Below, piece after piece: positions 8,494 to 27,100 of a DNA stretch of 39,677 bases (position 1 is its first letter; the number at the start of each line of letters is the position of its first letter). The position numbers and the translations under genes are program-made. The stretch is from a virus. A model generated the notes under the pieces. The model had not been told where the DNA came from. It saw only the letters and a list, made by a program, of their open reading frames with translations, and made no database searches. Where the stretch lies: positions 1 to 39,677 of the IMG/VR virus record IMGVR_UViG_3300020472_000064; one strand, written 5' to 3'.

Positions 8494-11400
8494 TTATTCC
8501 TTTATATATGATACGTGAATCTTATCATCTGGCTGCAAATCATAAGTAAACACTATCTTGTTTCCAGACATATTATAGTCGTCGTTTGTTCCAGCAACCT
8601 GTAAAATACCGTTTACATAAATAGCCTCTGTGTCAGACTTTAGAGAATAACCCGTGGGGAGCGTTATATTAAACTCGTTTGGAGAAGAGGGTAGCGAATC
8701 CACGTCTGATTTTATTTGCTGTCTTGTGACAATATTGTCAAGGGTTGTCAAGGACGCTGCCTTTGTTAACATGTCTGCTGTTGTCTCGGAAGAAATTAAA
8801 TCTGGTGTATCCTGAATGATTGTCAGGTCCGGACTTGTTGCTGCTGGAGATCCGGGTGCACTTGAGAAAAAGTCCACTTTACTTTCCAGTTTAATCATTT
8901 CTATTATTGAAAAATAATCATATGGCCAATTGTAAGAATAATTAGAGAATAGCCGCTTTTCATCCTCGTCAATGTCGTCGAACGTAGATGTGGCCTTGGT
9001 TCCGAACTTTCTTGTGCCGGCTGCCGCCATTACGTCTTCCGGTACCTCTGATAGCGAGTCATTTATTATATTAGAATAATGTGACTCTGCTCTATACTTT
9101 ATCTTAAAAACCAACCATCTCACGTTCTTTTCCAGAAATTCTTCCGGGGAATTAAAGACAGAATCTTTACCCCTAAGCCACGGTGAGTCGCCGGCAGAGA
9201 GAATGTGCGTAATATATTCTACGTCTGTCTCTGCATCATGATATGTGGGCTTCGAGTGTTGTGCAATTGAAATACCTTCCCCTCTTTTCGGATAGGTGTT
9301 TTGCCATATATCCGAAAGATCTTCCGAGGATAACTCTGCTTTAAATTGAAAAATATATGCAACGTGGGGGTCTATGTTTTCATTCCTTGTAAAGTCAAAC
9401 TGAGGTGGTAATATATATTTATCCATCATTCTCAGCTGGTAAGCTGCGTTGTCGATTGATTCCAAGCCTACCGATTCGTGAAACTTTTCATACTCATCCT
9501 TTATGTTTTTTATCTCGCGCGGCGAGTTTGCGGTCCTAAGGGCGTGGACAAACTCTTCTCTTGCTCTTAGATTCAGATCCCATGCAGAGTTCCGGAGTCC
9601 CTCTTTGAGAGGGAACAGTTTCATATCACAATCATCTGATAGGTAGTAAGGTATGGCTATAACCGCCTCACTTATAACCTTTGATTTTGCAACTTGGCCG
9701 AGCTTAATCTCTTTGAACGGCTGTGCTTTCGGAACTCCAAATGTCAGGCTTGGAGAATCAATTTGATCTAAAAACCCAACTTCTGATGCAAGGTTTCCAA
9801 ATGCATTATCCTTTACTTGGGCGCCCACTATGGTCAAATAATAGCCCTTATTAGAGTTCTCCAATAGGGTACCAGATTGATGCCACATTCCAGTAGATGA
9901 AGTAAGATAAGGAGTCGCAGACACTGCTCCAGTCTCGTAATAGGAGGTCTGATATCTATTTTTCCATGGAGACTGAGACACTTTTACCACCTGATCGTTT
10001 ACAAGGTTTAACGCCGATTGTTCTGTTTTCTGAAAATCGAATACTGGTGTCTCCCACTTCGGGTTAATTACCCATCTGTAAAAATCCCTGCTCTCAGCAG
10101 GCACCAAGACTTCTTCTCCGGGTGGGCCCTGGTAGAAATGATTGTCAGGATACAAAAGTACAGATTTGTCAAAATCCAAACTGGCTGAAAGGACCATGGC
10201 TTCCTTGTAGTTTGAATTTAAACTTGAGTTGGACGGGGCCGGCATATTGTTGTAAGTGACCGCCATACCGTCAATAATCTCAGGGATTGTATAATTTTTG
10301 GTTTCTGAGGGAGTGAAAGTTATTTCAGCATGCGGTGCAGTGTTCGGATCCAGGAAAGGCGGAACAAATGGCAAATACCCATGCGAAGCATATTCGGTAG
10401 TAGTTTGCTTTTCCAAATAAGGTTCATCCGGAAGCTGAATGTTTGTGCCGCCGGCTAAGCCAATCATCTCATTGACCCAATTGTTTGATGCAAAGCCCGA
10501 AGGTATCATTGTATAGTTCCCATCGGAACCAGTATCTAGTCTGTAGATGCTTATTACACTCTTCTCAGCTGCTGTATCTTTAGTGCAGGATGCCGAAAGA
10601 GAAAGTTCGTTATGAGAAGATGATAAATTAATAATCTCATTCTTTGTTAGACAGGCCAAATTCGTTCCCGTGTGATTGCCGGTCGACGAATTGTATGTAT
10701 AAGTCGATGCAGATAAATCAATATACCTGTTATAAGTCTCCGAAGTGCCGCCGGAGACAGCGGCGTCTGACTGTGATTCCAAAGTACTAACCACCTGCTC
10801 AATTGTGTGACCCGAGGCATTGAATTTTATTGGAAACGATACCGCTCCGAGATGGCCGTCTGCAGGGGAATGCGCCGTAACGTGTGCGATGTTAGTGTCG
10901 CTAGACCCTATAGCGCTGAAACTGTCAGTGTATAAATTGTTGACATTGTTGCCATACCAATTGTAATGCGACGCAGTGAAAAAATGAATAAACTCGGTTG
11001 GATATTTTTGTGTATTCACTTTTGAGAAGATAGAGATCGTTGCCCCATTGCGAAACACCTCCACCCTATTGCCGCCGGGGCCAGGAACAAACCAAGAGCC
11101 CGATGCAAGCATGCATTCGACGGAATACGCCATTTGCGCTGCTGTCTTATATGTTGTTCCAGAACCAGACGTACGAATATCAATGAATGGCAATCCTTTT
11201 GCAAGGCCGACTGCAGTTGCTGTTGAGCCGTGTTGAACCGCATCAGAACCACTCACCCTCCAAGCATGGTGGATCATATGATGTGTTGCTGCAGGGTCTG
11301 ATATATTAGAATCATAAACTCCAAAAGGAAGTTGTATTGTGTTAGATGAAGAAACGGTAGACCAGTAACTCAACGAAGGTGTACCTATGCTGAAGTGTGT

Positions 11401-14400
11401 CCCGTCTGTTGCTGCATTTGGTATAAATCCATGAACAGTATTAAGAACATTAGAGGCCGATACAGCCATCTTAGATATAGTTGATGAATCATATGCAGAC
11501 GGGTCTTTAAACACTAATTTTACGTAGCTGCCGGTGAAACACCTTGAATCATAGTAATAAATTGCCGCGCCATGGGTCGCGCCGGACACATGGAAATACT
11601 CGTTATCATAAGGAGTATATGAATCATAGGCGGAATCCACGCTCAGTGGTTGCAAATTTTCATCATAATTACATGATGCAGTAATACTCCAGGTATTCGT
11701 ATTCCCCGCCGCTGATGATGTATTTGCTCGAAAGTCAATTGAACCGGTAGCATAAGTTCCCGGTATAGGTGTAGAGTTTAACACGTACGCGGTGAACTCT
11801 GGTGCACCTTCGTCGACGGCGGGGCCGAAGGCAGAGTGCCTATCGTACATGGATACGCTTTTGTTGTTTACATATACCCTCATTTTGTATGCGACGTCTT
11901 TGGTTAACAGTGGTTTCGCTGGTGCAGAAACGGCCGTCTGTAATTTCTGGTCTTTAAGAAAAAACTTTACCGTTTCTGCCGCGAAGTTGTTGATAGCGCT
12001 TCGGTATGGACGAAGGTCAGTTACAAACCGGGCCCAATTTGCAGAAAACTCTGCCGAGTTGTAAAGCCTAGCATTAGAAGAATTTAATAGGCCAAATTTA
12101 GGATCGTGTTCGACTGCCCTCATAAACATTCGATCCCCATACAATATACTTGAACTAGGGTGCGGTTCATTTTCGTATATCACCTGAGAAAAAAGCCTCT
12201 CCGGTTGGAGAAGATCATTGAAATCGACTCTTCTTTCCACGGATCCGGTGAGTCTAGGAATACCACTGTCGACAGTGTTGTTTACAATTGACCCCGTATA
12301 ACATGTGCTTGCATCTAATTCAAAATCTGAAAAATCTGTGACCGGGCCTCGATCGAGTGCGGACCCTCCTGTCCAGCCGGTGTACGACACTCTGTCCAGA
12401 GTGAATGGCGTACCGCTGCCGCTTATTATTTCTTCCGAGGGTCCAGCAGATGTTCTGGTTAGAGATAATGTTTTGGTGGTAGAATTGTAGGACCCCGTTA
12501 AGGACCCATTGTGGCCGCCGATGGAGGCCATGGCAAGCTCTAGTTGATAGACGATAGACCTAAGAGTCGTCAAGCCGTCGACCTGTACTCTTACTATTGG
12601 GTTTGGAGTCGAAGATACAATATGTCCAGTGGCGCCGTCGGAAGCATTGTTACTAAACGAATACAGAATTCCTGAATTCTTGGATGCGTTGGTGTAGAAA
12701 ACCACTGAGCCGCCATTAAACGTTTCATCATCTGAAATAGTGTTCGAGTAGCTACTAAAATTTATAGTACCTACTGCGTACTCTCCCTCCGAAAGGTGGC
12801 TTATTGCACCGTGGACACTAGAAGAAAAAATAGGATAATCTACTGCTAATCCCGATTTAATAGAGTTGAATAAAACACCCGGGGCGAACAGCGGTTTCGA
12901 GACTTGACCTTTAGAGTTTTCGATCTTAATTCTAATTGAATCTTTTGATTGCTGTTCTGACAACGATGCATTTTGTATATAACCTAAATCATAAGAGCTT
13001 TCTGGTAAATAATTCCTGTTAAATATCTCTGTAATCTGCACAGACCTTTCTGCAGGATAAAAGCCCCTATATGGTAACAACCTCTTTACTGCGGAACACC
13101 GGAGAGTCAACTTTCCCGTGTTCATATCGAGTCCATTTTCTTTCAAGTTATCCGAAAACGGTTGAAAATATTTCATAAAATCAGAATTTGAATAAGTCTT
13201 AAAGAATTGCTTCCCTATCGATAGTTCACCCGAAGAGGTGTGATATACTGCACCTGTGAGTTCAAGAAAACCATCTCCAATCTCTGGGTTTGAAAAATTA
13301 CCGGAGGCGAAAATGTCTTCTATGTAACTGCTAATCTTAAATTCTGGAAGCAGTGAATACTCCTGACCCACTAGTCGAACCTCTTCTGCGAAATCACTAT
13401 ATTTGTCATAAAAAGGGCCAATGGTAGAGCTTCCTGTCGCCTCCCAAACAGCTTCGCCGGCGAGATAAACGTCCGATCCGGAGGCCTGGGGTACTCTTCT
13501 GTTATATATCGGAGCGTATGGCGGAGTACCCTTAAGGCCGTTGAAGCCCAAAGGAAAGATACTGTAGTCATTTTGAAGAACCCCTTCACCTCTCGTTGCC
13601 TGATCTCGTAGGCCGAGGAAAATATCTCCGCGTGTGAAGAAAGAAGATGTAATATTAACAGGGCGTTCTGAAAAATCCGCCCGGGAATCGAGTACCCATC
13701 GGCTGGATGTCACAAAAGATGACAATAATGGGGATGCTGTGGCGCCCGTTGTGTTGAGGTCTATGTGCTCATATGAATCATAATAACTATTCCTGAAGCT
13801 ATTTTCTTTCTTTATTGCTTCTGACGGTAGGAAATATCTCCTCTGGGTATCACTCGTAATAAACCCTGAATATTTCACGTTTCCAGTGAGTATTAATTCT
13901 CTTTGTGTGCGCGATGATTTCCACCCAAAGAAATCGTACAAGCTTCTATCCCGGGAATGTTTCGTGAAGGTATTGATTTCTCTTGGGTATATTGTTTCAA
14001 TATAATTTGCTTCCAGATAAGAGGCGCCTGGACGATTACCATTGTCACGTATAAAGTCATTAATAATACCAATATTGACACAAGATAAAAAAGGCGCCTC
14101 CTTAAATCTAATGTCGTCTGCCATCTCTTGGTTCGCAAAACCGGTTACAACATTTTGCACTGGAGCGCGCAAAGATAAACTCGGTATTGTCACAGAGAAG
14201 GGTCTATTTTGGGTCTTTGTTAGAAATTCATGAAGAAATTCGTCATTAAACCAGAGCCGTGAGAGAGCTAACTGAGAGATTGTTCTCGGAATTGGCGCGT
14301 CTCTTAGAAGTTCTATTCCAGACTCAGTGTTGTATGTGTGCATCGAGACTGTGATAGGATTAAACTTACATGTAGCCATTATCTCTTTATAATTCGAAAC

Positions 14401-17400
14401 CTTTCTGGGGTGTTCTTTCGTATTATTGTCCTCTTTGGTTCTGGAGTAGTCGAACTCCAAACCGGCATAGCAGCTTGAAAATGGAAATTTGTTTCTCATA
14501 ACGATCGATAATGTATTGTTTTTTCGGTGACTTCTGGTGATCTTGTGTTCTGATCCGCGGATTTGTTTCCAAGAGGGCCAACCATAGGGGCCCTGGCGGT
14601 TTAAAATAAGAGAATTAAGTCCTGTGACATCACCGTCAGTACGGCCATGCGAAGTGGATATTCCTTTTAAGAAATTATTATTAAAATAATATTCACTAAC
14701 CAAAGGTCTCGTGCGAGTTACCGCGGAATATCCTGGGCGGCCGATGGATATACCAGCTGAGTGGCCTAAGAGGTTATTTTCAGAATCGGTCGGTTCGTAT
14801 ATATGAGTGTTCAGGCCCGTGAAGTCAACTGGGATGAAAGCAGGTGCATCGCCTTCAATGCTAGGATAATATGGCAAATCCAAAACCCCATACGCCGAGC
14901 CGAGCTTACTTGCAGATAAAAACTGTATTGTTTCGCTAGACTTAAGGCTTCCCGATATATCGAAAGTATGCTGATGTGATATGTTTCCATTTTTATCTAG
15001 AAAACTATAAACGTCCTCGTCGGCGGATGCGGCGATCCAAGAATAACTAAAATCATGATGAGGTATCTGATGTTGTATAAAGAGATTATCCGAGGTGTCA
15101 ACTGGTATATCGCCTCCGGCGAAGGAGGCGGGGGAGTTTACGTCTGTAATAGATGACCAGTTGGATACTGCAATTTCCGTGTTTCCCTTTCTTCCCCCAG
15201 CAGCTTGAATCAGAGTGATTGCAGCACCGTCGCGCGATGCAGTAATTGTACCGTTATGTCCGTTTGATCCGTTGACGAGAAGTATAAAATTTTCAGCAGC
15301 AACGTTGGCGTTTGCGCCAGCATTGAATTCTAAAGCAGATGAGGCGCCGTAGTCGTTTTTGATAACATACGTTCTTGACAAGCCCGCGGTATTAACAAGA
15401 GTAATTGACGCGTTATTTACATCGTCAAATTCAGTATCCCCAAAAGTAAAAGAAGCACTGGCATGCCCAATCCCGGTGAGTTTTAGGAGATTTCTGTTAG
15501 TCTTGTGTATCGACTGTTGAGTGTTAGAGCCGGATCGGTATCCGAACCGCTCGGAGCGCTCGGTGGATAAAATATTATAGGTGTCTCTCACGAGTGAGTT
15601 TCTGTAATTGACAGTACTATATACTGAATATTCTGCAGCCTCTCTGTCTAGACCGTATAATCCCGATGATTCCGGTGTTCCGGGGGATGAAAACCTATTG
15701 ACTATTACATGCTCTCGTCTCGTTCTAACGGGAGCCTCGAAGTTTACCACACCGGATATATAAGAAGACACGCCCAAACTACCGGTAAGGCCCACACCCT
15801 CAGACTCAACCAAATAGGTATTGTTACTTGAGCGGCCGTTTGTCATCACAATTTCATAGTCTTTCGAATAATTGCCCAGAACCAAAGGGCTGGTTCTCGT
15901 CTTGACGTTCCCTATGTGATAGAGCCGGCTGCCGGGGGCGCCTTTATGGAACATAGACTTTGACCCGGATGCTTGGGTTATTGTGAGGCTTGCAGCTGTT
16001 GATACTATAGAATAAGCCTCTGGTCGGTCTGCGGAACTAGTAACTCCAACCTTAACGTTTCGATGGGGCATGCCGCCCATCATATCCCTAGGCAGGAGCC
16101 CCTGTAGGGAAGTTGGCATATCCAAATTGTTTGTTATCTTAAGGTTGTGCTTAAAATTGCTAAAATCATACCCTGCCGAAGAACTATAAAAAGTAAAAGG
16201 CAATATTAAGTCAGCATCGGCATCAAGATAGTTGTCAACATCTGAAGTGTTTGTTTTCGCTACATATATCTTTTCATTTTGGGCATCGATGATGTCGTCA
16301 CACTTTTTAAATTCATAAATATCATCTGATTTTATAGATATATTTTTTCCTGTTTTTATTATTTCATAAAGGGACCTTATTTTGTTCGCTTTTCTGTTGT
16401 GTCCCAAACTTAAAGTATCTTGCCTGTCAGCCGTGTACTTGTAGGGCCTTACGAGATTTCTCATTACATAATTTCTTGCGAGGGCCCATCCTGAACCTGT
16501 TACGACGGTTGTTAAAACATTTCGAATGGTTTCTCTGTCTCCAGTGCGGAGCTTTCTGTCTCTCTGCCAGAAGCAATTCATGTCTTCGTCGTTGCCCGAA
16601 CCACCAGTAAAACTACTAGGAGCGTTGATGTCAGTGATACTATCCCAGTTTGAAACAGCGATCGATGTGTTTCCGGCGATGCCTGCGTTTTTTTGCTTTA
16701 ATGTTATTGTTGCTCCAGATCTGGTTGCCTCGATTGTTCCGTTGTGGCCGTTGGCACTATTCACAAGAATTATAAAATTTTCGGCGGCCGCTGCGACGTT
16801 GGCGCCGGCGTTGAATTCCAATGCGCCAGAAGCGCCATAATCGTTCCTAATCACATAAGTCTTTGAAGCCCCTAGTGAATCTATGAGTGTTATAGAAGCA
16901 CTATTGACATCATCAAACTCTGTATCTCCGAAAGTGAACGTGGCCGCGGCCTGAGTTGCTGGGGTACCGTGGCCGTGTTTCCAGTCATATAGCATTTCAT
17001 TAATTGCTAGAAGGTTTGTGCCGGGACTTGGTGGTTTTTGTTCGAGCCTGTTATATTTGTGGTCATATTTGTTTCTCTCCAGCGCATGAGACTCCACAAC
17101 ATTTTCTATACCCACGTTTGAAAAAGAGGACGCTGGAATCATCTGCTCCAACAAGACCCCAATGGCAGAATCCATCCACCTATAATAACTCATGTATCTT
17201 TCGAAATCCAAATCATTGAGGACATTGGAGAAATATTTTTCCCTCAAGTGATTTAAAAGCTTATATTCTTTTCTGTATTTGTTTACCGGTTCGCCGATAA
17301 CGTTATTGTATGCTTTTATGCCGGCGAGAAAGTTATAGATATCTCTAGAGACAGCCTGATACACACTCTTTTCGAATGAAAAAATCCGTGCTGTAGATTT

Positions 17401-20349
17401 TGATGAAAGATTTAATTTTTCATGGGCAGAGTCTTTTATTTGTATTTCATCAACCCCCTTAAAGCTGGCCATCGGCACTGTTCTGACGTGTGACACATGC
17501 TCTTCTCTCACTACTTTTGCAAGGTCTGTACTGAACCCTATCGATTTAAAATTATACTTTTGACCTGCGACTGGACCTTGAGAGGAGACCCTGTCTAGGG
17601 AACCCGATGTTTCGTCCTCCACTTCGAAGATTCCAGAGACTATCGGGACAGACAAAGCGGAAAACTGAGTCTTAAAGACAGCTGACCTCCGGTCTCGGCG
17701 GTCAGAGGAAAAGTTTTTGTAGTGTGGTCGTGAAGAGCCAAAGCTCAGCGGGTTTCGGGCCCGATGGATGATTTCCTCATCCAACAACGAATCCTCCCAT
17801 GCGCTAAAATTTAAAATCGACACGTCTGTCTTGTCGATTACTGATCCTGTTATATTTGTCCTATTCGCGCCGAGGAACACTGTCTTGTTTGACTCGTTAA
17901 ACTTTTCATACTTCTCTTTAGTTATAGGCGATGTGATTTGAAATGAATTGATTAAATCCTCCAACAAATAATTATAACCTGAAAAAACAAGCTCATAAGA
18001 TTCATTTGCTAAATCTATAAATGGCTCACTCGTGGCCTTCCTAACTCTCACGCCTATGTTCCACCTAGAGTTATCATAAACCTTATTCATATACGGGCTA
18101 TTGAGGCTAGTTGATATTATTGAAGAGTTGGATTCCAACACAAACCTTGCTTTGTCAGAATTTAAAGACTTTTTTTCTACGAAAACTGTCAAGTTTGCCC
18201 TATCTGGTGCCGTGACAGTCAAATCGTTCTTGGATCCCGAAACCTCCCTCAGCCCATAAAGAGGACACTTAATTATTTCAAGTTCGGACGTGTCCAAGGC
18301 GGGAAAAATATAACTCCCTTCGAAAGTATATTGAGCATTTGTGGTTCCTGAGCAGTGTGGTATATAAGTTGTCTCATCCGAGAGGGCTGAAGACATGTAG
18401 AGAGTTGCAGCACTGTTGTTCAGGAAGTTTACAGAATTTATTCTTGAGATGTGATGATCGCTTTTGTCCTCTTTTAAATATATTTCTGCACTTGGGCGCA
18501 GAAACATATCAGTTAAATCGGTAGTGTCTATTCCGGAAATTGAATAAATACTCCTAATTGAAGAATAGGTCCCCTTTCTCTTCATTAGATTATTAGCCTC
18601 GACGGCGCATCTTTGTGCAAATGCGTTTCTCACTTCTGACATTGTCTCAGTCTGTCTAAGGTTTTCTGTTATGCCCTCTACGGCGTCTGTGATGTTGTCA
18701 GATTTTTGAAAGAATAAATCGTGTCGAAGTCCCAAGTTCCATGCTGCTTGTTGAGATTTCCCAGCGCGGTACCCATTGGTAATTGTATTGTCTATGTCAC
18801 TGTCCACACATCCTATAAAAATGTTATTACTATAGTTTATAGAACCGGTCTTATTAACTTCTTCATTTGTTATGATCTGGTTAGTTTCTTGATAGTTTGG
18901 TATCAAATCCTCTCTTGACGAATCTAAAAATATCTTTATTTCGTCAAATTCATTTGACATCAAGTGCAGCAGAATCTCGAATTCAGTAATCGATTGGGAC
19001 GCGTCCATTTCTTGGCGCGCCCAGTCAGGAATGAATCGCTGAAGCATACTTTGATTTTGGTTGTCGTGTGTTTCTCCTAATAATTTTAATTCTTGCGTCA
19101 GAGAGGAAACTTCGGTGTGGGCATAATCTAATATTGGGTCGCCCGGTTCAGTATTTTGAGATTGTTCTGATAACGTTATCGCTGATAAAGGAACGCGGCA
19201 TGAATCAGTGTAATTGTTTATGCGGCCGATGACGTCGTTTCCGGAGTGATCCATCACCAAACTATCAACACTTGTCCGGTTAACTGGGGATTTGTTAAAT
19301 CGATAATTTAACCCCAACATGTTGTCGTATTTTGGGTCCCTTTGGTCACTTGCATATATTTTTTTATCAAAATACCTAGTTATTTGCCTGGATGTTCTGG
19401 GGCCTTTCCAGAAACGAAAATCGTCGATGGATCCTGAAAAATCACCACTTGCAGAACCGTGCGCTGCAGCGATGGTTCCTCCCAGATAACTATCAACTGC
19501 AGTCATAGAGCCGGCCGAAATGGCGTGGGTGGAATCGACATTACCGTCGACGTACATCTTTACATTTAAGTTTGTTCCTGAGTGCCAAAATTTAAGAGCA
19601 TAATGATGCCATTTTGCATCTGCCACAGAAGAGTTCGTCAGATTTGCAGAGCCGATTTGTACGTTAACAGATCCCGAGGATGAAACCTTATACGTTAACC
19701 GAAAAGGACTTCCAGTTGAAGCGGATAGGGCTAGTTTTATTTGAGCTGAATTAGAGGAAGACAGTTTTCCAGGATAGGACCCCACATCGAATATTGTTTC
19801 AACTGGGTTAGAAGCCGTATTGAAACTGTCTTTTTTCATCCAAAATTCTACAGTATTCCCCTTAGTTGGATCTATACGTAGACCTGTCTCCTTGTGAGTT
19901 GATTTGCCAACAAATTCCGCCTCAGGAATTTTATTCGGTCCAGCGTAAAAATTTATATATTGACTATAATTTGCATTAAAGTGTCCCACGGCGCTGGGCC
20001 AGAGTTGTTTGTATAGTGACAAATCAACCACGGAGCCAGAGCGATGCCACTCCAAGACCTCCTCCCTTGTGCCGTCGAAGGGGTAGTAATTAATAATGTT
20101 CGACGCGGCGCCAAGGTAATACTGCTGCGCGCTTCCGAAGTGAGCAAACTGCTCCGGGGATTTAATTTTGATCGACGGCCGATAGGTTTTCGAGAATTTG
20201 TCGTAAATCTTGGCCAATGAATCAGACTCTAAATCTTTTGAGATCATCTTCTCCGATTCGTTAACCGAGTTAATTTTCTTTTGTTCCAGAAACTTTTCTC
20301 TTCGTTTGTCTTTTTTTAGTTTTTGGGGCCTATTTTTATACTCTGTCAT
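8494..20349 (-). CDS. Giant tail/baseplate adhesin-like protein (3951 aa)
   Basis: One uninterrupted 11.86-kb frame starts at ATG 20349, which shares a base with the upstream TGA. The N-terminus is basic (residues 1-60). Residues about 150-335 form a LamG/concanavalin-like jelly roll (strands NTVEFWMKK, then WHHYALKFW, MYVDG and GSIDDFRFWKG). Two clearly homologous modules of about 115 residues occur at about 1130-1250 and 1630-1750 (FGDTEFDDVN-ASITL, NGHNGTI, GNT-IAVSNW). Fainter versions lie near 2526-2665, 2990-3085 and 3150-3300. The last 60 residues (YVNGILQ, then IVFTYDLQPDDKIHVSYIKE) resemble the small C-terminal beta modules of phage fibres. The whole is rich in Ser, Thr, Tyr and Asn. 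Likely a host-recognition or distal tail component, since LamG folds commonly bind glycans; the substrate is unknown. Confidence 0.85.
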   Translation of the reverse strand: MTEYKNRPQKLKKDKRREKFLEQKKINSVNESEKMISKDLESDSLAKIYDKFSKTYRPSIKIKSPEQFAHFGSAQQYYLGAASNIINYYPFDGTREEVLEWHRSGSVVDLSLYKQLWPSAVGHFNANYSQYINFYAGPNKIPEAEFVGKSTHKETGLRIDPTKGNTVEFWMKKDSFNTASNPVETIFDVGSYPGKLSSSNSAQIKLALSASTGSPFRLTYKVSSSGSVNVQIGSANLTNSSVADAKWHHYALKFWHSGTNLNVKMYVDGNVDSTHAISAGSMTAVDSYLGGTIAAAHGSASGDFSGSIDDFRFWKGPRTSRQITRYFDKKIYASDQRDPKYDNMLGLNYRFNKSPVNRTSVDSLVMDHSGNDVIGRINNYTDSCRVPLSAITLSEQSQNTEPGDPILDYAHTEVSSLTQELKLLGETHDNQNQSMLQRFIPDWARQEMDASQSITEFEILLHLMSNEFDEIKIFLDSSREDLIPNYQETNQIITNEEVNKTGSINYSNNIFIGCVDSDIDNTITNGYRAGKSQQAAWNLGLRHDLFFQKSDNITDAVEGITENLRQTETMSEVRNAFAQRCAVEANNLMKRKGTYSSIRSIYSISGIDTTDLTDMFLRPSAEIYLKEDKSDHHISRINSVNFLNNSAATLYMSSALSDETTYIPHCSGTTNAQYTFEGSYIFPALDTSELEIIKCPLYGLREVSGSKNDLTVTAPDRANLTVFVEKKSLNSDKARFVLESNSSIISTSLNSPYMNKVYDNSRWNIGVRVRKATSEPFIDLANESYELVFSGYNYLLEDLINSFQITSPITKEKYEKFNESNKTVFLGANRTNITGSVIDKTDVSILNFSAWEDSLLDEEIIHRARNPLSFGSSRPHYKNFSSDRRDRRSAVFKTQFSALSVPIVSGIFEVEDETSGSLDRVSSQGPVAGQKYNFKSIGFSTDLAKVVREEHVSHVRTVPMASFKGVDEIQIKDSAHEKLNLSSKSTARIFSFEKSVYQAVSRDIYNFLAGIKAYNNVIGEPVNKYRKEYKLLNHLREKYFSNVLNDLDFERYMSYYRWMDSAIGVLLEQMIPASSFSNVGIENVVESHALERNKYDHKYNRLEQKPPSPGTNLLAINEMLYDWKHGHGTPATQAAATFTFGDTEFDDVNSASITLIDSLGASKTYVIRNDYGASGALEFNAGANVAAAAENFIILVNSANGHNGTIEATRSGATITLKQKNAGIAGNTSIAVSNWDSITDINAPSSFTGGSGNDEDMNCFWQRDRKLRTGDRETIRNVLTTVVTGSGWALARNYVMRNLVRPYKYTADRQDTLSLGHNRKANKIRSLYEIIKTGKNISIKSDDIYEFKKCDDIIDAQNEKIYVAKTNTSDVDNYLDADADLILPFTFYSSSAGYDFSNFKHNLKITNNLDMPTSLQGLLPRDMMGGMPHRNVKVGVTSSADRPEAYSIVSTAASLTITQASGSKSMFHKGAPGSRLYHIGNVKTRTSPLVLGNYSKDYEIVMTNGRSSNNTYLVESEGVGLTGSLGVSSYISGVVNFEAPVRTRREHVIVNRFSSPGTPESSGLYGLDREAAEYSVYSTVNYRNSLVRDTYNILSTERSERFGYRSGSNTQQSIHKTNRNLLKLTGIGHASASFTFGDTEFDDVNNASITLVNTAGLSRTYVIKNDYGASSALEFNAGANANVAAENFILLVNGSNGHNGTITASRDGAAITLIQAAGGRKGNTEIAVSNWSSITDVNSPASFAGGDIPVDTSDNLFIQHQIPHHDFSYSWIAASADEDVYSFLDKNGNISHQHTFDISGSLKSSETIQFLSASKLGSAYGVLDLPYYPSIEGDAPAFIPVDFTGLNTHIYEPTDSENNLLGHSAGISIGRPGYSAVTRTRPLVSEYYFNNNFLKGISTSHGRTDGDVTGLNSLILNRQGPYGWPSWKQIRGSEHKITRSHRKNNTLSIVMRNKFPFSSCYAGLEFDYSRTKEDNNTKEHPRKVSNYKEIMATCKFNPITVSMHTYNTESGIELLRDAPIPRTISQLALSRLWFNDEFLHEFLTKTQNRPFSVTIPSLSLRAPVQNVVTGFANQEMADDIRFKEAPFLSCVNIGIINDFIRDNGNRPGASYLEANYIETIYPREINTFTKHSRDRSLYDFFGWKSSRTQRELILTGNVKYSGFITSDTQRRYFLPSEAIKKENSFRNSYYDSYEHIDLNTTGATASPLLSSFVTSSRWVLDSRADFSERPVNITSSFFTRGDIFLGLRDQATRGEGVLQNDYSIFPLGFNGLKGTPPYAPIYNRRVPQASGSDVYLAGEAVWEATGSSTIGPFYDKYSDFAEEVRLVGQEYSLLPEFKISSYIEDIFASGNFSNPEIGDGFLELTGAVYHTSSGELSIGKQFFKTYSNSDFMKYFQPFSDNLKENGLDMNTGKLTLRCSAVKRLLPYRGFYPAERSVQITEIFNRNYLPESSYDLGYIQNASLSEQQSKDSIRIKIENSKGQVSKPLFAPGVLFNSIKSGLAVDYPIFSSSVHGAISHLSEGEYAVGTINFSSYSNTISDDETFNGGSVVFYTNASKNSGILYSFSNNASDGATGHIVSSTPNPIVRVQVDGLTTLRSIVYQLELAMASIGGHNGSLTGSYNSTTKTLSLTRTSAGPSEEIISGSGTPFTLDRVSYTGWTGGSALDRGPVTDFSDFELDASTCYTGSIVNNTVDSGIPRLTGSVERRVDFNDLLQPERLFSQVIYENEPHPSSSILYGDRMFMRAVEHDPKFGLLNSSNARLYNSAEFSANWARFVTDLRPYRSAINNFAAETVKFFLKDQKLQTAVSAPAKPLLTKDVAYKMRVYVNNKSVSMYDRHSAFGPAVDEGAPEFTAYVLNSTPIPGTYATGSIDFRANTSSAAGNTNTWSITASCNYDENLQPLSVDSAYDSYTPYDNEYFHVSGATHGAAIYYYDSRCFTGSYVKLVFKDPSAYDSSTISKMAVSASNVLNTVHGFIPNAATDGTHFSIGTPSLSYWSTVSSSNTIQLPFGVYDSNISDPAATHHMIHHAWRVSGSDAVQHGSTATAVGLAKGLPFIDIRTSGSGTTYKTAAQMAYSVECMLASGSWFVPGPGGNRVEVFRNGATISIFSKVNTQKYPTEFIHFFTASHYNWYGNNVNNLYTDSFSAIGSSDTNIAHVTAHSPADGHLGAVSFPIKFNASGHTIEQVVSTLESQSDAAVSGGTSETYNRYIDLSASTYTYNSSTGNHTGTNLACLTKNEIINLSSSHNELSLSASCTKDTAAEKSVISIYRLDTGSDGNYTMIPSGFASNNWVNEMIGLAGGTNIQLPDEPYLEKQTTTEYASHGYLPFVPPFLDPNTAPHAEITFTPSETKNYTIPEIIDGMAVTYNNMPAPSNSSLNSNYKEAMVLSASLDFDKSVLLYPDNHFYQGPPGEEVLVPAESRDFYRWVINPKWETPVFDFQKTEQSALNLVNDQVVKVSQSPWKNRYQTSYYETGAVSATPYLTSSTGMWHQSGTLLENSNKGYYLTIVGAQVKDNAFGNLASEVGFLDQIDSPSLTFGVPKAQPFKEIKLGQVAKSKVISEAVIAIPYYLSDDCDMKLFPLKEGLRNSAWDLNLRAREEFVHALRTANSPREIKNIKDEYEKFHESVGLESIDNAAYQLRMMDKYILPPQFDFTRNENIDPHVAYIFQFKAELSSEDLSDIWQNTYPKRGEGISIAQHSKPTYHDAETDVEYITHILSAGDSPWLRGKDSVFNSPEEFLEKNVRWLVFKIKYRAESHYSNIINDSLSEVPEDVMAAAGTRKFGTKATSTFDDIDEDEKRLFSNYSYNWPYDYFSIIEMIKLESKVDFFSSAPGSPAATSPDLTIIQDTPDLISSETTADMLTKAASLTTLDNIVTRQQIKSDVDSLPSSPNEFNITLPTGYSLKSDTEAIYVNGILQVAGTNDDYNMSGNKIVFTYDLQPDDKIHVSYIKE
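15110..15450 (-). repeat. Beta-module copy B inside the 3951-residue protein
   Basis: This segment encodes about residues 1630-1750, starting ASFTFGDTEFDDVNNASITL and closing with SWxSITDVNSPASFAGG-type sequence. It aligns along its full length with the module at 16600-16950. Protein identity is high by eye, while the DNA has diverged widely, so this is a coding-level duplication rather than a recent DNA repeat. Confidence 0.75.
16600..16950 (-). repeat. Beta-module copy A inside the 3951-residue protein
   Basis: This segment encodes about residues 1130-1250, starting ATFTFGDTEFDDVNSASITL, then KTYVIRNDYGAS, NSANGHNGTIEATRSGATI and GNTSIAVSNWDSITDINAPS. It is the best match to copy B at 15110-15450. 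It sits between a helical region and more conserved-looking sequence, as expected of an inserted accessory domain. Confidence 0.75.
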
Positions 20350-21818
20350 CAGTCTACTCTAAATCTAAATTTCTCTTTCATTTCTTTGAATTTATCGTTG
20401 TCTTTAAATATAAAGCTCATCTCATATAAATAGTTTGATTCCAAAATTGACATATCTAAATCAAAGAAAGATCCACTAATATCATAAGATAGCCTAGAAA
20501 ATGATTTACCAGATATGCTACCGGTCGAATATGGAATTATCTCGTGATCGTCAACTACTCTACTTATTCTGTAGTACCCTTCTCGAACATTATTCACTGG
20601 TGCACTGTTCGATGCTACAGTGTAGATGTTGGGTTTCCAATTTTTTGTACGAGTGTAAACTCTAAATGTTATGTTTTCTGACTGTGAATACGAATCCTTC
20701 ATGTTAAGTACATTTGCCACATACTCCGAATTCTCGTAAAAACTGCCCAACTCGTTTTTACGGATTGAAAACCCCGAGCCGGTAAGCAGAGTAGTTGCTA
20801 TGTTTGACGAGGAAGTTGACCAAATGTCAAACAAGCTGCTCTTGGCCCCGGCATATGCAAATTGCGCTTTATAAACCCCTGTCGATACCCTGCTTGCCGT
20901 TATAAACGTAGGAGAGGCCGCATTGACGCCGCCGGCTGGGGCTAAAGTCTCTGGTGTCGCGCCGGCGGAGGCGCCCAATGAAGACGAAAACAACTGAACT
21001 ACCAACATGGAACCCGTATCTGGAATATCCGATAAGATACCTCTGCTTTTGTTATACAAATATATACTGTTTAAATTGTCTTTTGCAGGCGAAAGACTAC
21101 TCGATGTAAAGATGCATCCGCGATCGTCGAAGATTGAACTTTCATATTGGGCCTCGATGACAGGCTTCTTGAAAAAGAACTCGCTGCCGTGGCCGAAGAA
21201 TCGCTTTGTAAAATAAGATCTTTCTAAGGCGCCGTTTTCGAACGCCCCAGAGAGCCGAAGAAGTAGGCCGTAATTCGGAATCGTCCCGGCTAACCAAGCT
21301 TCGACTATGTTTGTAACATCTACGTTTAAGTCTTCATAGCCGCCACTAAAATGTGCTGTCTTTTCATATGTTAAGCTATTGTTATAATCAGACCCGGGGG
21401 TACTCCAAGGCACTGCATGACTTGAAGAAATCCAATTGCTCGCGTCCGCGTCTGAATAAGACTCCATATCTAAGCCGACCCCCTCACTCCACTCTCTCGT
21501 CAGTGGATTGATGCAAAGTTTAAAATTTTTAGGCAACGTTTCACTATGGGTGGCGTTTGACATTTTTATTTTAAAGTCCACAGAGTTTGCTGCAGGTATG
21601 CTTCCGTCAGAACGTGCTTTGGAGATCTCGTCAACTGGAAACTGTATTAAGATTCTGGATTTTTCGAGAGAGGAAGTTGTGGCCTGTGCATAAATAGAGA
21701 ATACCTCTAAAATATCTGAAGCTCCCATGTTCGACAACGAGGCCGAAGTGGATAAATTCTCCTTATATGCGTCCGTGATCGTATTATCTTTTGTTGCGGT
21801 AAATCTCTTTATTGGCAT
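20349..21818 (-). CDS. DNRLRE-like baseplate/tail protein (489 aa)
   Basis: It starts at ATG 21818, overlapping the TAA of the gp6-like gene (TAATG), and its stop overlaps the start of the giant protein. The first about 230 residues follow the plan of DNRLRE/CBM96-type beta sandwiches: an N-terminal DNTITDAYKENLSTSASLSNMG, the core strand KSRILIQFPV, and the hallmark VDVTNIVEAWLAGTIPNYGL leading to a conserved-looking RSYFTKRFFG. The remaining 250 residues look like further beta domains ending SFIFKDNDKFKEMKEKFRF. Such folds often serve in cell-surface or carbohydrate contact. Between gp6-like and a giant fibre-like gene it could link baseplate to fibre. The fold call is moderate; the role is inferred. 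Confidence 0.8.
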   Translation of the reverse strand: MPIKRFTATKDNTITDAYKENLSTSASLSNMGASDILEVFSIYAQATTSSLEKSRILIQFPVDEISKARSDGSIPAANSVDFKIKMSNATHSETLPKNFKLCINPLTREWSEGVGLDMESYSDADASNWISSSHAVPWSTPGSDYNNSLTYEKTAHFSGGYEDLNVDVTNIVEAWLAGTIPNYGLLLRLSGAFENGALERSYFTKRFFGHGSEFFFKKPVIEAQYESSIFDDRGCIFTSSSLSPAKDNLNSIYLYNKSRGILSDIPDTGSMLVVQLFSSSLGASAGATPETLAPAGGVNAASPTFITASRVSTGVYKAQFAYAGAKSSLFDIWSTSSSNIATTLLTGSGFSIRKNELGSFYENSEYVANVLNMKDSYSQSENITFRVYTRTKNWKPNIYTVASNSAPVNNVREGYYRISRVVDDHEIIPYSTGSISGKSFSRLSYDISGSFFDLDMSILESNYLYEMSFIFKDNDKFKEMKEKFRFRVD

Positions 21819-23620
21819 TATTTAATAACCCCTGTGATATCTGATTGATTTTTTATTTCCCATATAAAGTTTTCTGGCATGTATATCATTGATCCATCGG
21901 GTGCAGTATTAGGTGCAATATCGTAGCGAACATCAGAATACCCTGTTCCGGTTTTTGTCCTAACTTGGACCCTGTTCACTCGACCTATTATTGGCATCAG
22001 GTTCAATATCCTCTCCACTTCTCCTATTGGAAATGCCTGTCCGACCTCGGGAGTAGTGAGGGATAATTCTTCAAACAAAAACTCCCTTATTCTTGGCATA
22101 GCCGTGTTGATGTCTTCTTGATCTGAAATTGTAACGTCCAGATATAAGCCTAAATTTAATATTTGTGCATCGTAAATGTCAATTGTGTCCGACATCATCT
22201 TAACAGATCCTAGCCATTTTTTTAAGTTTTCTTTTAACAAAGAACTTGCTTTTTGAAGGTTACTGGCTTCATCTTCTGATATGCAATATAAATTAAGATT
22301 TCTCCTTAATCCATTAGAATCGCGATGGACTGATGCTTTTCTGATTTTTCCAAATCTCGGCGGCATCGCATAACACATTGCTGTGATATCCTTGGATGTC
22401 ACAGCTCGGCCCTGGGCTCCGATGGCTGCTTGACAAGTTAGCGCTATTTCCTTTGTTGACTGAAACCTGACCAAGCCATTAAAAGGCTCTTTATTTGTGC
22501 AAGACATGTTATTTCGAATAAAGCTCATATTGTCTTGGCCCAACTCCACCTCTTTGTCGAAAACAATTTCAGGCGAAACTATTCGATTTATTGATCCTAT
22601 AGAAATATTGGAGTTATCGCTACTGTTAGAGCGGTAAGAAATAGTCAAAGTCGTATTTTGTGGTGCGACGCCATACTTATCTGATTTTAAATATTTACCA
22701 GGGACTATGACCCTGTCTGAAACATGTCGTCGTCCGGGCTTCTGAAGAAAAAAGTCTATCGGATTGGCAGGCTGATTTGATACTTTCAAGGTATCCTCGG
22801 ATCCGTAGCCAAACTCTAGAATCTTTCTTGCCCCTTCTTCAAAGAACCGAAACCTTCTTGGTACCGGGATGTCTATCATCCTTTCGACCACCTCACCAGA
22901 ATCTGCATTCTTGTCCCTTATTTCTTTAGTTATCGTATTTAAGCTGAGATTTGCTACTTCGTAATACCTGTTACCTTCCGTGTCTACTACATCTAGTATT
23001 TCAGTGCACGAAACGTCGGGTACCTCTACCTGTAAAAAATGATTATATTGCGCAACTTCCACTACAAATTTTTTAATTTCGCCGGCTACGCATGCTGCCT
23101 CTTTTTCAATATAATATATCAACGATCGCGTGCCGTCGTCGCTGTAGCTGGTTGATACGCTTTCGTCGGTTAAAGGATTCACTGTCACGTCCTCTAGAAG
23201 TTCCACAAACTGTCCTGATTGACTTGACATCATTGTACCCTTTAGCAAAGTATATGACCCATTGGGATCCGGAGTAACCTGATCTGATGAAACAACCATG
23301 GGCAGGCGCAATGTGACTCTCCCTTGTGGTGGTGTCTCCCCTAAAAAGATGCCGGCTCGGCGGGCGCCGTTTGTCAGGCCGACGCCTGTGCGGGCGAACT
23401 CTACGAAACCTTCGTTTGCAACAAATTGAGCATAGAAATTTAATTGCTCTCCGACCATTGCGACCAGGTCGAACATTAAGGAACCGAAACTAGTCTTACT
23501 AAAGTCTCTATAAGTCTCCGGATAATAGGTCTCCGCGCGGTTTATTATCTTCTGCTTTATTTCATCAAAAGTAACACTAGTATAGTCTGTGTTTTGTATT
23601 CCTCTATTGTTGTTTCCCAT
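21818..23620 (-). CDS. Baseplate wedge protein, T4 gp6 / baseplate-J-like
   Basis: The 600-residue length is close to T4 gp6 (about 660). The N-terminal stretch VTFDEIKQKIINRAETYYPE, then FSKTSFGSLMFDLVAMVGEQLNFYAQFVANEGF, is the typical gp6/J start: a short helix, a G-x-L--L-D-L-x-A pattern and an N/Y-rich helix ending in a 'VANEGFVEFA' segment. The C-terminal VGQAFPIGEVERILNLMPII segment also fits the J-family end. Proteins of this family form the baseplate ring that connects wedges and triggers sheath contraction. It follows the gp25-like gene after 14 bp with a GGAG site, the same gp25-then-gp6/J order seen in many contractile systems. Confidence in the family is high. Confidence 0.88.
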   Translation of the reverse strand: MGNNNRGIQNTDYTSVTFDEIKQKIINRAETYYPETYRDFSKTSFGSLMFDLVAMVGEQLNFYAQFVANEGFVEFARTGVGLTNGARRAGIFLGETPPQGRVTLRLPMVVSSDQVTPDPNGSYTLLKGTMMSSQSGQFVELLEDVTVNPLTDESVSTSYSDDGTRSLIYYIEKEAACVAGEIKKFVVEVAQYNHFLQVEVPDVSCTEILDVVDTEGNRYYEVANLSLNTITKEIRDKNADSGEVVERMIDIPVPRRFRFFEEGARKILEFGYGSEDTLKVSNQPANPIDFFLQKPGRRHVSDRVIVPGKYLKSDKYGVAPQNTTLTISYRSNSSDNSNISIGSINRIVSPEIVFDKEVELGQDNMSFIRNNMSCTNKEPFNGLVRFQSTKEIALTCQAAIGAQGRAVTSKDITAMCYAMPPRFGKIRKASVHRDSNGLRRNLNLYCISEDEASNLQKASSLLKENLKKWLGSVKMMSDTIDIYDAQILNLGLYLDVTISDQEDINTAMPRIREFLFEELSLTTPEVGQAFPIGEVERILNLMPIIGRVNRVQVRTKTGTGYSDVRYDIAPNTAPDGSMIYMPENFIWEIKNQSDITGVIK

Positions 23621-23634
23621 CTTAAATCTCCATT

Positions 23635-24159
23635 TTAAAGCATATCTATATCGCTTACTAGCGCTTCTCTTCTGTTCAACAAATCTATTCCCTGAAATCT
23701 CGTATTCTGGATATCTTCTATCTTAACACTGTCGAAAGCTGATTCGAAAATAGTTGTAATACCAACTGAACCAAGCACTGTATACGACATTAAGATTTTT
23801 ACTTTATTGTTATCGATATCCTCATCCTTGTAATCAAATAAAAGATCATTCAACACCACTTGTGGCAAGTGTAGCCTAAGTTGATCGTGTATAACGGGAG
23901 CGAGAGACTGCAACTTTTCAGAATTTGGATGCTCAAAAAGATAATGCTTTAGCCCAACTCCAATTTCCGGTGACATTGGCCATTCTCCAGGACTGGTCAA
24001 CAAAAGGTTTATAAAGTTTCTTTTATGAGACTCTTCTATTGATGTAATTGGAAAATAAGGCCCGTATGCCGGGTCATATTTGAGTGGAAACTGTGGCTGT
24101 TGTTGGTTTTTTATTATCCTTTTCGAGTTTCTGGATACAATATCACTTAAGACTGACAC
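23635..24159 (-). CDS. Baseplate wedge protein, T4 gp25-like
   Basis: This 174-residue protein starts at GTG 24159 (AAAAGGAG upstream). Residues 47-77 (KRNFINLLLTSPGEWPMSPE, then GVGLKHYLFE) carry the gp25/IraD-family signature: a helix ending LLLT-x-P-G-E, then M-x-P-x-x-G-x-x-L-x-x-x-L-F-E. Gp25-like proteins sit at the inner baseplate, interact with gp6-like proteins and nucleate the sheath; despite the 'lysozyme' label in some databases they are structural. It is longer than T4 gp25 (132 residues), the extra length lying in the N-terminal 40 residues and the C-terminus. A candidate promoter motif lies just upstream. Confidence 0.9.
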   Translation of the reverse strand: MSVLSDIVSRNSKRIIKNQQQPQFPLKYDPAYGPYFPITSIEESHKRNFINLLLTSPGEWPMSPEIGVGLKHYLFEHPNSEKLQSLAPVIHDQLRLHLPQVVLNDLLFDYKDEDIDNNKVKILMSYTVLGSVGITTIFESAFDSVKIEDIQNTRFQGIDLLNRREALVSDIDML

Positions 24160-24199: not shown

Positions 24200-27100
24200 T
24201 TATTCTTCATCGCAATCTGTGTATCTCGCGATTGGTGCCGGTGCACAATTAGGTCTCTTTAGGTTTTTATCTGATTCTAATTGTGGTGTACTGAGCGCTA
24301 GCACTGTAAACGGCGTCAAAGGGTGGCCGTAGCGCCCGAACTGACCTAGGTCGTACTTGCCCTCTGGTTTCGGTGCCCAAGCCTCATCGATACCAAGACA
24401 GGGCACTGAAAATGCGACACTAAGGTCTAACATTGGCAAGTTCCCAGAAAACGCATACGTCAAGGTTTTTGCAAGAGTTATACCCAACGGCTTGGCGTTA
24501 AGAGCCATCAAGTGTGCCAAGGAACCAAGCATGTCCACTAAACCAGTATGTATTATGGGTGCGTATCTGCCTTGATTGGCGCCTCGCCGGCCTTCACGGC
24601 CGTCGGGCAGCCAAAGGCCGTTAACTAGGCCGTCGTTGAGAGTTTCCAGTTTTAGACCTTCCCAGTCTAGATTTCTAATGTCGCAATTTAAGTAATGTGT
24701 TCTCATCTCTTTGTAAGCGGGATCTATAATATTCGCGACGCCTCGGAACAGAATTGATGGCAACTCTTTTATAAGCTTCCATAAATCTTTTATAAATTTC
24801 TCAAAAAACTCCTTACTTGGTAACGGAAAATCAAAACAATCGGCCGCTTCTGGATGGGAGGGCCAGTTGTTTTTCATTATATTACGGAAATCAGCAGCTG
24901 TCAAAGGAATCAATTGATCTCTTTGGGAAGTTGGAGTTGATACGATCGTTGCCATAAAAGCAATTGCTGCTTTAGTCGGAGAGAACAAGGATGGCAACCC
25001 ATTGTACCCAGACAGAACTGCCGTCGCAAAAATTGAATTTATTGTCATATATCTTCGTATGGGGAATACATGATCGAAAATGTTCTTGAATTCCTCTTTT
25101 TCCGTCAATCTAGTGAACATGTACGTCTGATGACGAAACAGGCCGGTGCCGGGTTGGCCCGAGAAGACAGAAGAGCAAGTTTCCAAATCTATTATCCTCT
25201 CTTCTTCCACTAGCGGTATTTGCACTATCTTGTCAAAATTCGCCAGATGGGACTCAAAGCCGGCGTTCCGCAGGCGAGTGGGTTGAAAGTCTCCCTCTCC
25301 TGCGTCGGCGCCGACGGCCACTAGAAAAGATTTTTGTTCAACTGATTTTTCATAAATATTTGGATAATTACCCTCCAGATACCGGATCAAGGTTCCGTTT
25401 TGAAAGCGACCAACTAGTCGAACTCCATGAACAAAGTTTGAATCTTCTATTATTTGTTTGTATTCCAAGTTACCAAAGCCCGCGGACATGACCTTTATCA
25501 GTGAATCAAAGGCCCAAACTGGAAAACAGATTTCTTTCTCTTCGGGCGATTCAATGAGGTAGACAGCCCGCATGAAGTCGGGGTGGTTGGGGTTGACACC
25601 GAGAAGGTTCTCTCTTCGTAATCTGTCAGCCCTTGATAAAATATCCGGATTTAAGATTTCTCCTGAAACTTTCACATAATCTTCTAATTTAAAATGTTTA
25701 CTTGAGCGATCAAAGCGCTCCGAAATCACCGGCAGAAGTATCCTCTCTACGTCGTCCGTACTGATTTCGTCAAAGTATTCTGAATCTGATACAAGCTCTT
25801 TAACTCCTCCTATGGCTTTTTCAAAATACCAATTGTAAAAATCCACTTCTTTCCGGTCAAAATTAAATGCTTGTTTTGAATAGTCTGGAAATTTCACAAT
25901 TTCCTGCTCTACTAGTTTTTTTAAGGCAATATTTGGGTTCGTTATTCCAACTGTTTTCTCAATTATTTTTTTCCATGTAAATCTAAAAAAACTGGAACTC
26001 TCCAACTCCGTCTTAACATGCTCTACAACATACTCTACAAACAGCGGATCTGATACAATTGGCTCAATATCCCAGGAGGAATAGGCTAGGCCACCTTTTA
26101 GTAAGGTATCCAATAAACATACACGCACGAAAGCTTTCATGCTAATTTTCTGCATGGCAATATCGATTGGCCCAGGGTCGTCAAAATCACGCTTTTCAGG
26201 TGAGTTCTCCGGCTTAGCGGTCTCTTTCATTATTTCTAAATGAGTCTCTTGCAATATTACCTTATCAAATGCAAGAGAAGCTGCTTCCACTAAGCCATAT
26301 CGATTAGTAACACATTCTTTTTCGTCATCATAGATCGGTTTGGCGGAAATTCTTCGATCAAGCTCTTCGGCATATGAAATATCGAACAGTCGCGAGCCTT
26401 TAACTTCATCCAGTAGGGATGACATAATTTCTTCCTGCTTACTTTCATATAAATCCTTATACAACAATTCTTGCAACTCGCGCTGGGCGCCGGGCCTTCT
26501 AGACTCCGGAGCGGCCGTGCCCAAAGAGCTTTCTATTTTTTGCATTATAATTTGTGCGAAGGCTTCCCTTTTAGAATAATAGCTTTCCGGGTTGTCGCCC
26601 TGGTGCAGTACGCCGCGGGGGTTGCCGCTGCCCGGGTGGATGGCCAGAGGGTGATTCCTGCGTGTTAAAGATCTAGGCAAGCTTTCGCAAAATTTAAAAG
26701 TTTTTGTTTTTGCCTCGCTAGATTGATGCAAGTGAAAGTCGCTACTAACTGTCACACTATAACTCTCTAACCCTGTTTCGGCCGGGAACTCCCTGTATTC
26801 GACTTTTGGCTTATATAGACCGAGCTCTATGAACAATTCTGTTACATTGTGGTGCGGAAAATTAATTATTTTAGATTTTTTCATAATTTTGTCCAACATC
26901 AAAAGGTGCTTCGGGGTTACGGACATGGGCCGTAATCGGAAATATTCTACTAAAGTATTCGTCAGTTTACCGAGACGTTCGTTGATCATTTTCATTAGCT
27001 CCGGGTGGTTCCTTTGCGACTGTCTGAAAGCTGAAGCGAAGGCTATATTTCTGAAGTGATTAACGCCCTCGTCCCACTCGGCTTTAGTCTGGGCACCAGA

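Follow-up and report, generated by a model that had tools for sequence, protein, structure and literature searches.

What is the repeated domain in the giant structural protein encoded by this stretch of viral DNA, and does it represent an old pool of domains that can be reshuffled to change host range? The window, by which we mean the whole 39.7 kb stretch analysed here, is an IMG/VR virus record with almost every gene on the minus strand, and its source is an uncultured contractile-tailed phage. A gp25-like baseplate wedge gene (23635..24159, minus strand; phrog_261, E 3.2e-9) is followed by a gp6-like baseplate wedge gene (21818..23620, minus; phrog_219, E 4.5e-10), so that the two homologues are neighbours as in a T4-type baseplate wedge. 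Next come a gene for a 489-residue protein (20349..21818, minus) and the open reading frame (ORF) of P0001, the 3951-residue baseplate-region protein that carries the modules (8494..20349, minus; from the ORF and its translation). A second giant ORF of 3195 aa (24200-33787, minus) has no Pfam or PHROG match.

Orthologues of the N-terminal part of P0001 were found at 52 loci in viral contigs, plus 5 closer ones. The P0001 backbone had one 28% match, to an uncultured phage of 484 kb that has no annotation, and tblastn searches of named phages with module A, the module consensus, the N-terminal 667 aa and the L016 modules found no relatives. The single match among bacterial genomes lies on a contig of 15,163 bases from a Myxococcales MAG bin; this contig is most likely viral, since an IMG/VR viral contig has exactly its length. 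P0001 includes a Laminin_G_3/ConA-like lectin domain at residues 160-323 (19381..19872, minus; Pfam PF13385, E 1.3e-12). A putative second ConA-like or laminin-G-like beta-sandwich, at about residues 637-867 (17750..18440, minus), is visible only in an AlphaFold2 (AF2) model of the L084 orthologue, which is a good prediction only for its first ~230 residues; in Foldseek it resembles pentraxin, laminin G and lectins, with E-values down to 1e-6. The C-terminal ~60 residues of P0001 (8494-8700, minus) contain the motif YVNGILQVAGTNDDYNMSGNKIVFTYDLQPDDKIHVSYIKE, which by eye looks like the C-terminus VYINGLHLSLSSSATGITDHWDYKIDSSRLVFSAGTDINVGDEIVIKYVAS of an unrelated 1026-aa fibre-like protein, L096. 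In L048, L049, L029, L038 and L056 the P0001 gene is present as two consecutive ORFs split near backbone residue 1790-1840, and in L085/L087 the orthologous gene is split near residue 880, which suggests that fusion or fission of P0001 has been recurrent.

The preliminary description proposed two clear and about three degenerate copies of a beta module within P0001. We found that the two clear copies, module A (residues 1136-1250; 16600..16944, minus) and module B (residues 1632-1746; 15112..15456, minus), belong to one subfamily, named FTFGDTEF, and are 72% identical over about 115 aa. All the motifs named earlier are present, with FGDTEFDDVN at residues 1140 and 1636 and NGHNGTI at residues 1200 and 1696. 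Against a profile made without the window and without L084, A scored 126.9 bits and B 120.2 bits, whereas the highest score among 200 locally shuffled copies was 5.4 bits and the reversed protein stayed below 0. The weaker segments fared unequally. Module C (residues 2545-2662; 12364..12717, minus), of a divergent subfamily, is a weak but sound copy with 16.3 bits and an hhalign probability of 73.5%, against at most 0.3% for the controls. Module E (residues 3200-3301; 10447..10752, minus) is very divergent and remains borderline, with 14.8 bits and 7.3% in hhalign. The segment at 2990-3085 could not be retained: the region around it (D, residues 2975-3125) had no profile match and an hhalign probability of 0.3%, which is the control level, and the NGATISIF motif assigned to it actually lies at residue 3101, beyond that range. 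An iterated profile over viral contigs recovered only A, B, C and E within the window, all in P0001. Module E sits in a hypervariable stretch of P0001 (about residues 2888-3254; window 10500-11700, minus), where relatives are unalignable, differ by up to ~290 residues net and each carry different module-like segments.

The module is a domain of about 115 residues that is so far unnamed. Pfam and NCBIfam gave no meaningful match for any of 42 module sequences, and in PHROGs 5 of the 42 matched one PHROG of unknown function (best E 4e-5). An AF2 model built with an alignment predicts a compact beta-alpha-beta module (pLDDT 88.5, pTM 0.85), with strands at 2-6, 18-22, 28-34 and 44-46, a helix at 51-62, and strands at 72-77, 80-85 and 95-99. 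Sequence searches for solved structures found none for the module or for the P0001 backbone. Foldseek found no solved structure with E below 0.001, the top matches being flagellin and a cyanophage tail sheath (E 0.06-0.07). Among predicted viral proteins, structure comparison gave 12 matches below 0.001. They include proteins of Rhodobacter phage RcTitan and Nonlabens phage P12024S as well as baseplate-J-like and major tail proteins; a similar fold is also predicted, at weaker E-values, for tail tubular proteins. On these models, the fold appears to be widespread in phage structural proteins yet unnamed. Profiles of Ig type (Pfam Big_*, Ig and fn3) had no significant match in the 42 members, the best being Big_1 in one member with E 0.019 on the scale of a single protein. 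The model combines strands with the helix at 51-62, and Foldseek matched antibody chains at best with probability and TM values below 0.4. Kinship with flagellin was hinted at by Foldseek (P. aeruginosa FliC, E 0.06) and is unsupported by sequence, since the Flagellin IN motif (PF07196) had no match in the window and hhalign of the module against E. coli K-12 FliC and FliD gave probabilities of at most 0.2.

Based on the comparison of relatives, we found that the module comes and goes in frame at fixed backbone sites. The module profile matched at 15 or more loci of P0001 orthologues and neighbouring proteins. The closest relative, L084, with a backbone about 70% identical, lacks exactly A and B, with nothing else altered. 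Module A lies between LYDWKHGH and NDEDMNCFWQ, and the junction reads ...LYDWEHGHY-SSDEDKNCLW... in L084 against ...LYDWKHGHG-[A]-NDEDMNCFW... in the window; module B lies between HKTNRNLLKLTG and SDNLFIQHQIP. A is cleanly absent from L084, L085, L086, L017, L003 and L018. B is missing in L084, L085, L086 and L017, and a B module is present at the identical site in L003. Occupancy is low: 2 of 33 orthologues have a module in the A slot (the window, +123 aa, and L019, +119 aa), with a further +95 aa in L065 that contain no recognised module, and 2 of 22 have one in the B slot (the window and L003). Module C is common to the window and L084 only, and six relatives have ~140 residues fewer there. 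L003 has a module set of its own, in the B slot, in two further slots and, as a C-like module, elsewhere. The minimum number of changes (gains or losses) on the backbone tree is at least two at A, at least two at B and at least three at the slot near L084 residue 1325. Thus, even among close relatives, these are movable in-frame domains in discrete slots, and their presence or absence leaves the backbone undisturbed. An unsystematic look at the sequence bordering A and B revealed neither a flanking repeat nor a mobile element. An AF2 model of the backbone with four slots had a mean pLDDT of 56 and was poor around the slots.

The same domain is found in several other virion proteins. The 489-residue protein adjoining P0001 has two module slots, both empty in the window; relatives encode longer forms (617-643 aa and 762 aa), those of 617-643 aa filling one or other slot, and L027 fills both. 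In addition, the tail sheath of the L003 and L017 genomes (phrog_23, E 1e-66 and 5e-63) houses a module at differing positions, and these inserts (L092 and L094) form one family with the modules that the two genomes carry in baseplate, neck and fibre proteins. The head-tail adaptor (phrog_211) of L003 and L017 is 544-552 aa long with a module at one common site, and in seven relatives it is 419-432 aa long with none. The module is thus carried by non-homologous virion proteins: with modules masked, an all-against-all comparison found no similarity between P0001 and the host proteins L004-L082, and the sheath and the adaptor are further hosts. One carrier of the FTFGDTEF subfamily, L010, has a podovirus-type head-tail adaptor gene (phrog_449) next to it. 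In L008 (3492 aa) and L097 (1532 aa), whole and half modules are packed into dense tandem arrays; the repeated halves, the N-terminal ~42 aa or the C-terminal ~75 aa, suggest that the module may be duplicated by halves.

The ancestry of the copies was examined in module trees of ~120 columns with some long branches. An origin by duplication within P0001 only, with A, B, C and E descending from one ancestral repeat that then decayed, would explain why several copies share one protein and why A and B form a clade with the two closest L003 modules (100/98). However, the next neighbours of this clade are modules of unrelated proteins in unrelated phages, and a single clade was rejected both for A+B+C+E (AU p 0.0007) and for A+B+C (AU p 0.027). 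This origin is therefore extremely improbable, and with it goes the earlier view of the weaker segments as degenerate descendants of A and B, which belong to a separate and rare FTFGDTEF subfamily present in about 17 viral contigs. Another possibility is a common ancestor with every slot occupied, followed by losses in most lineages and no transfer. B and its L003 counterpart do occupy the same slot as sisters (99/92), with B flanks that follow the backbone tree, but B would then require repeated independent losses (L084, L085/87, L086 and L017), and neither different subfamilies in one slot nor modules in unrelated proteins would be accounted for; we regard this history as very unlikely. The modules in the A slots of the window and L019 are not sisters (AU p = 0.009), and nor are the two adaptor-slot modules of L003 and L017 (AU p = 0.009). 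Instead, the L017 adaptor module pairs with one from a different protein encoded by the L003 genome (97/79), and the clade around it is made up of modules from unrelated phages (99/95). Since modules in one slot are not always sisters, replacement or independent insertion, and hence shuffling, is indicated. The DNA of A and B has diverged while the protein features persist, as previously described (nucleotide identity 0.62). At conserved residues, the number of identical codons is what chance predicts (27 against 29.3 expected, z -0.54). Such random synonymous choice suggests that A and B are old or were acquired separately; the split between them is an old one. In other pairs, codon sharing lies anywhere between the chance level and that of recent duplication, with recent duplicates in L019 (z 3.8) and L004 (z 3.4). 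Avoidance of shared codons as a guard against recombination between A and B, suggested by a pS of 0.93, was ruled out by the same codon test.

The notion of an old, reshuffled domain pool is thus borne out: module number varies with clean coming and going at fixed sites, one slot is reused by different subfamilies, and the same subfamily is carried by unrelated proteins. The purpose once attached to it, a change of host range, was not supported, because the sheath and the head-tail adaptor also carry the module and nothing in the comparison ties a module type to a host. Tail sheaths and head-tail adaptors are not receptor-binding proteins, and modules in sheath and neck argue against a pure host-range device. 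If the modules were receptor-binding units whose swapping retargets the phage, a baseplate-region protein with lectin-like domains would be a fitting carrier, and patchy occupancy and slot swapping would follow. Receptor-binding tips are usually hypervariable, however, whereas A and B are conserved at 72-76% between copies and genomes, and we consider this role quite unlikely. Modules could also act as braces between adjacent subunits or make the protein longer, stabilising the virion without any ligand; their presence in sheath and neck agrees with this, and stabilisation by additional domains has been proposed in the sheath literature (PMC9230969). Against it, the same protein works without modules in most relatives, where the slots are empty, and different subfamilies in one slot fit a specific contact poorly. 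A purely structural spacer or cement is therefore unlikely, if less so than a host-range cassette.

We think it probable that the module is a mobile accessory virion domain carried in permissive loops, which contributes weak adhesion or stabilisation much as phage Ig-like domains may do. A self-contained beta-alpha-beta unit of ~115 residues would enter in frame via some recombination step, and insertion would be limited to permissive sites of tail and neck proteins where the backbone is left undisturbed. In this phage, slots A, B and C of P0001 are filled, and E probably. Clean indels and coil in the low-confidence backbone model suggest that the slots may be exposed loops. By analogy with Ig-like domains and sheath accessory domains (PMC6949934, PMC9230969), the modules may lend the virion weak, non-specific binding to polysaccharides of cell surfaces or particles, and stabilisation of the virion may be a further advantage. 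The two lectin-like beta-sandwiches in the P0001 backbone would fit such an adhesive surface. A more far-reaching version, in which one cassette family uses a common set of slots across the baseplate, sheath, neck and fibre proteins of a marine phage lineage and is swapped between slots, inside a genome as well as among genomes, at a rate sufficient to diversify the whole tail surface rather than the receptor-binding tip, is conceivable but doubtful.

The module belongs to a known kind, the promiscuous accessory virion domains, and what is unusual is the reuse of slots by different subfamilies. Ig-like domains that roam among structural proteins of tailed phages were already described in 2006 (Fraser et al. 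2006, as cited in PMC6949934 and PMC9230969). In the accounts given there, they resemble the module in being accessory, beta-rich, about 100 residues long, patchily distributed across unrelated phages in proteins of the tail, neck and sheath, and horizontally exchanged, with weak carbohydrate binding proposed for the Ig-like domains. Unlike them, the module is of another family by its lack of a significant Ig profile among the 42 members, is predicted to have a 12-residue helix between strand pairs, and occupies internal slots. BACON repeats of crAss-like phages are likewise beta domains of tail proteins spread by horizontal transfer and duplication, but theirs is a named Ig-like family and they are arranged in tandem (PMC6949934), whereas the module family is unnamed and mostly forms single inserts in dispersed slots. 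Contractile tail sheath proteins likewise carry additional domains, which are inserted in a conserved core and dispensable for core function (PMC9230969); by contrast, the L092/L094 inserts share their family with baseplate, neck and fibre inserts, and their slots differ between genomes. General domain mosaicism involves shuffling in receptor-binding and baseplate proteins across phage taxa (Smug et al. 2023, PMC10684548), but that survey covered known ECOD domains, whereas the module has no Pfam or NCBIfam model and weak PHROGs matches.

Overall, our analysis adds a second, unrelated and unnamed domain family that behaves like the roaming Ig-like domains. Natural relatives provide exact empty and filled sites, spread over more than one protein of the same virion, and so constitute a natural experiment on the function of virion decoration. 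In addition, a new profile of this family would annotate many 'hypothetical' stretches in the giant structural proteins of marine phages.
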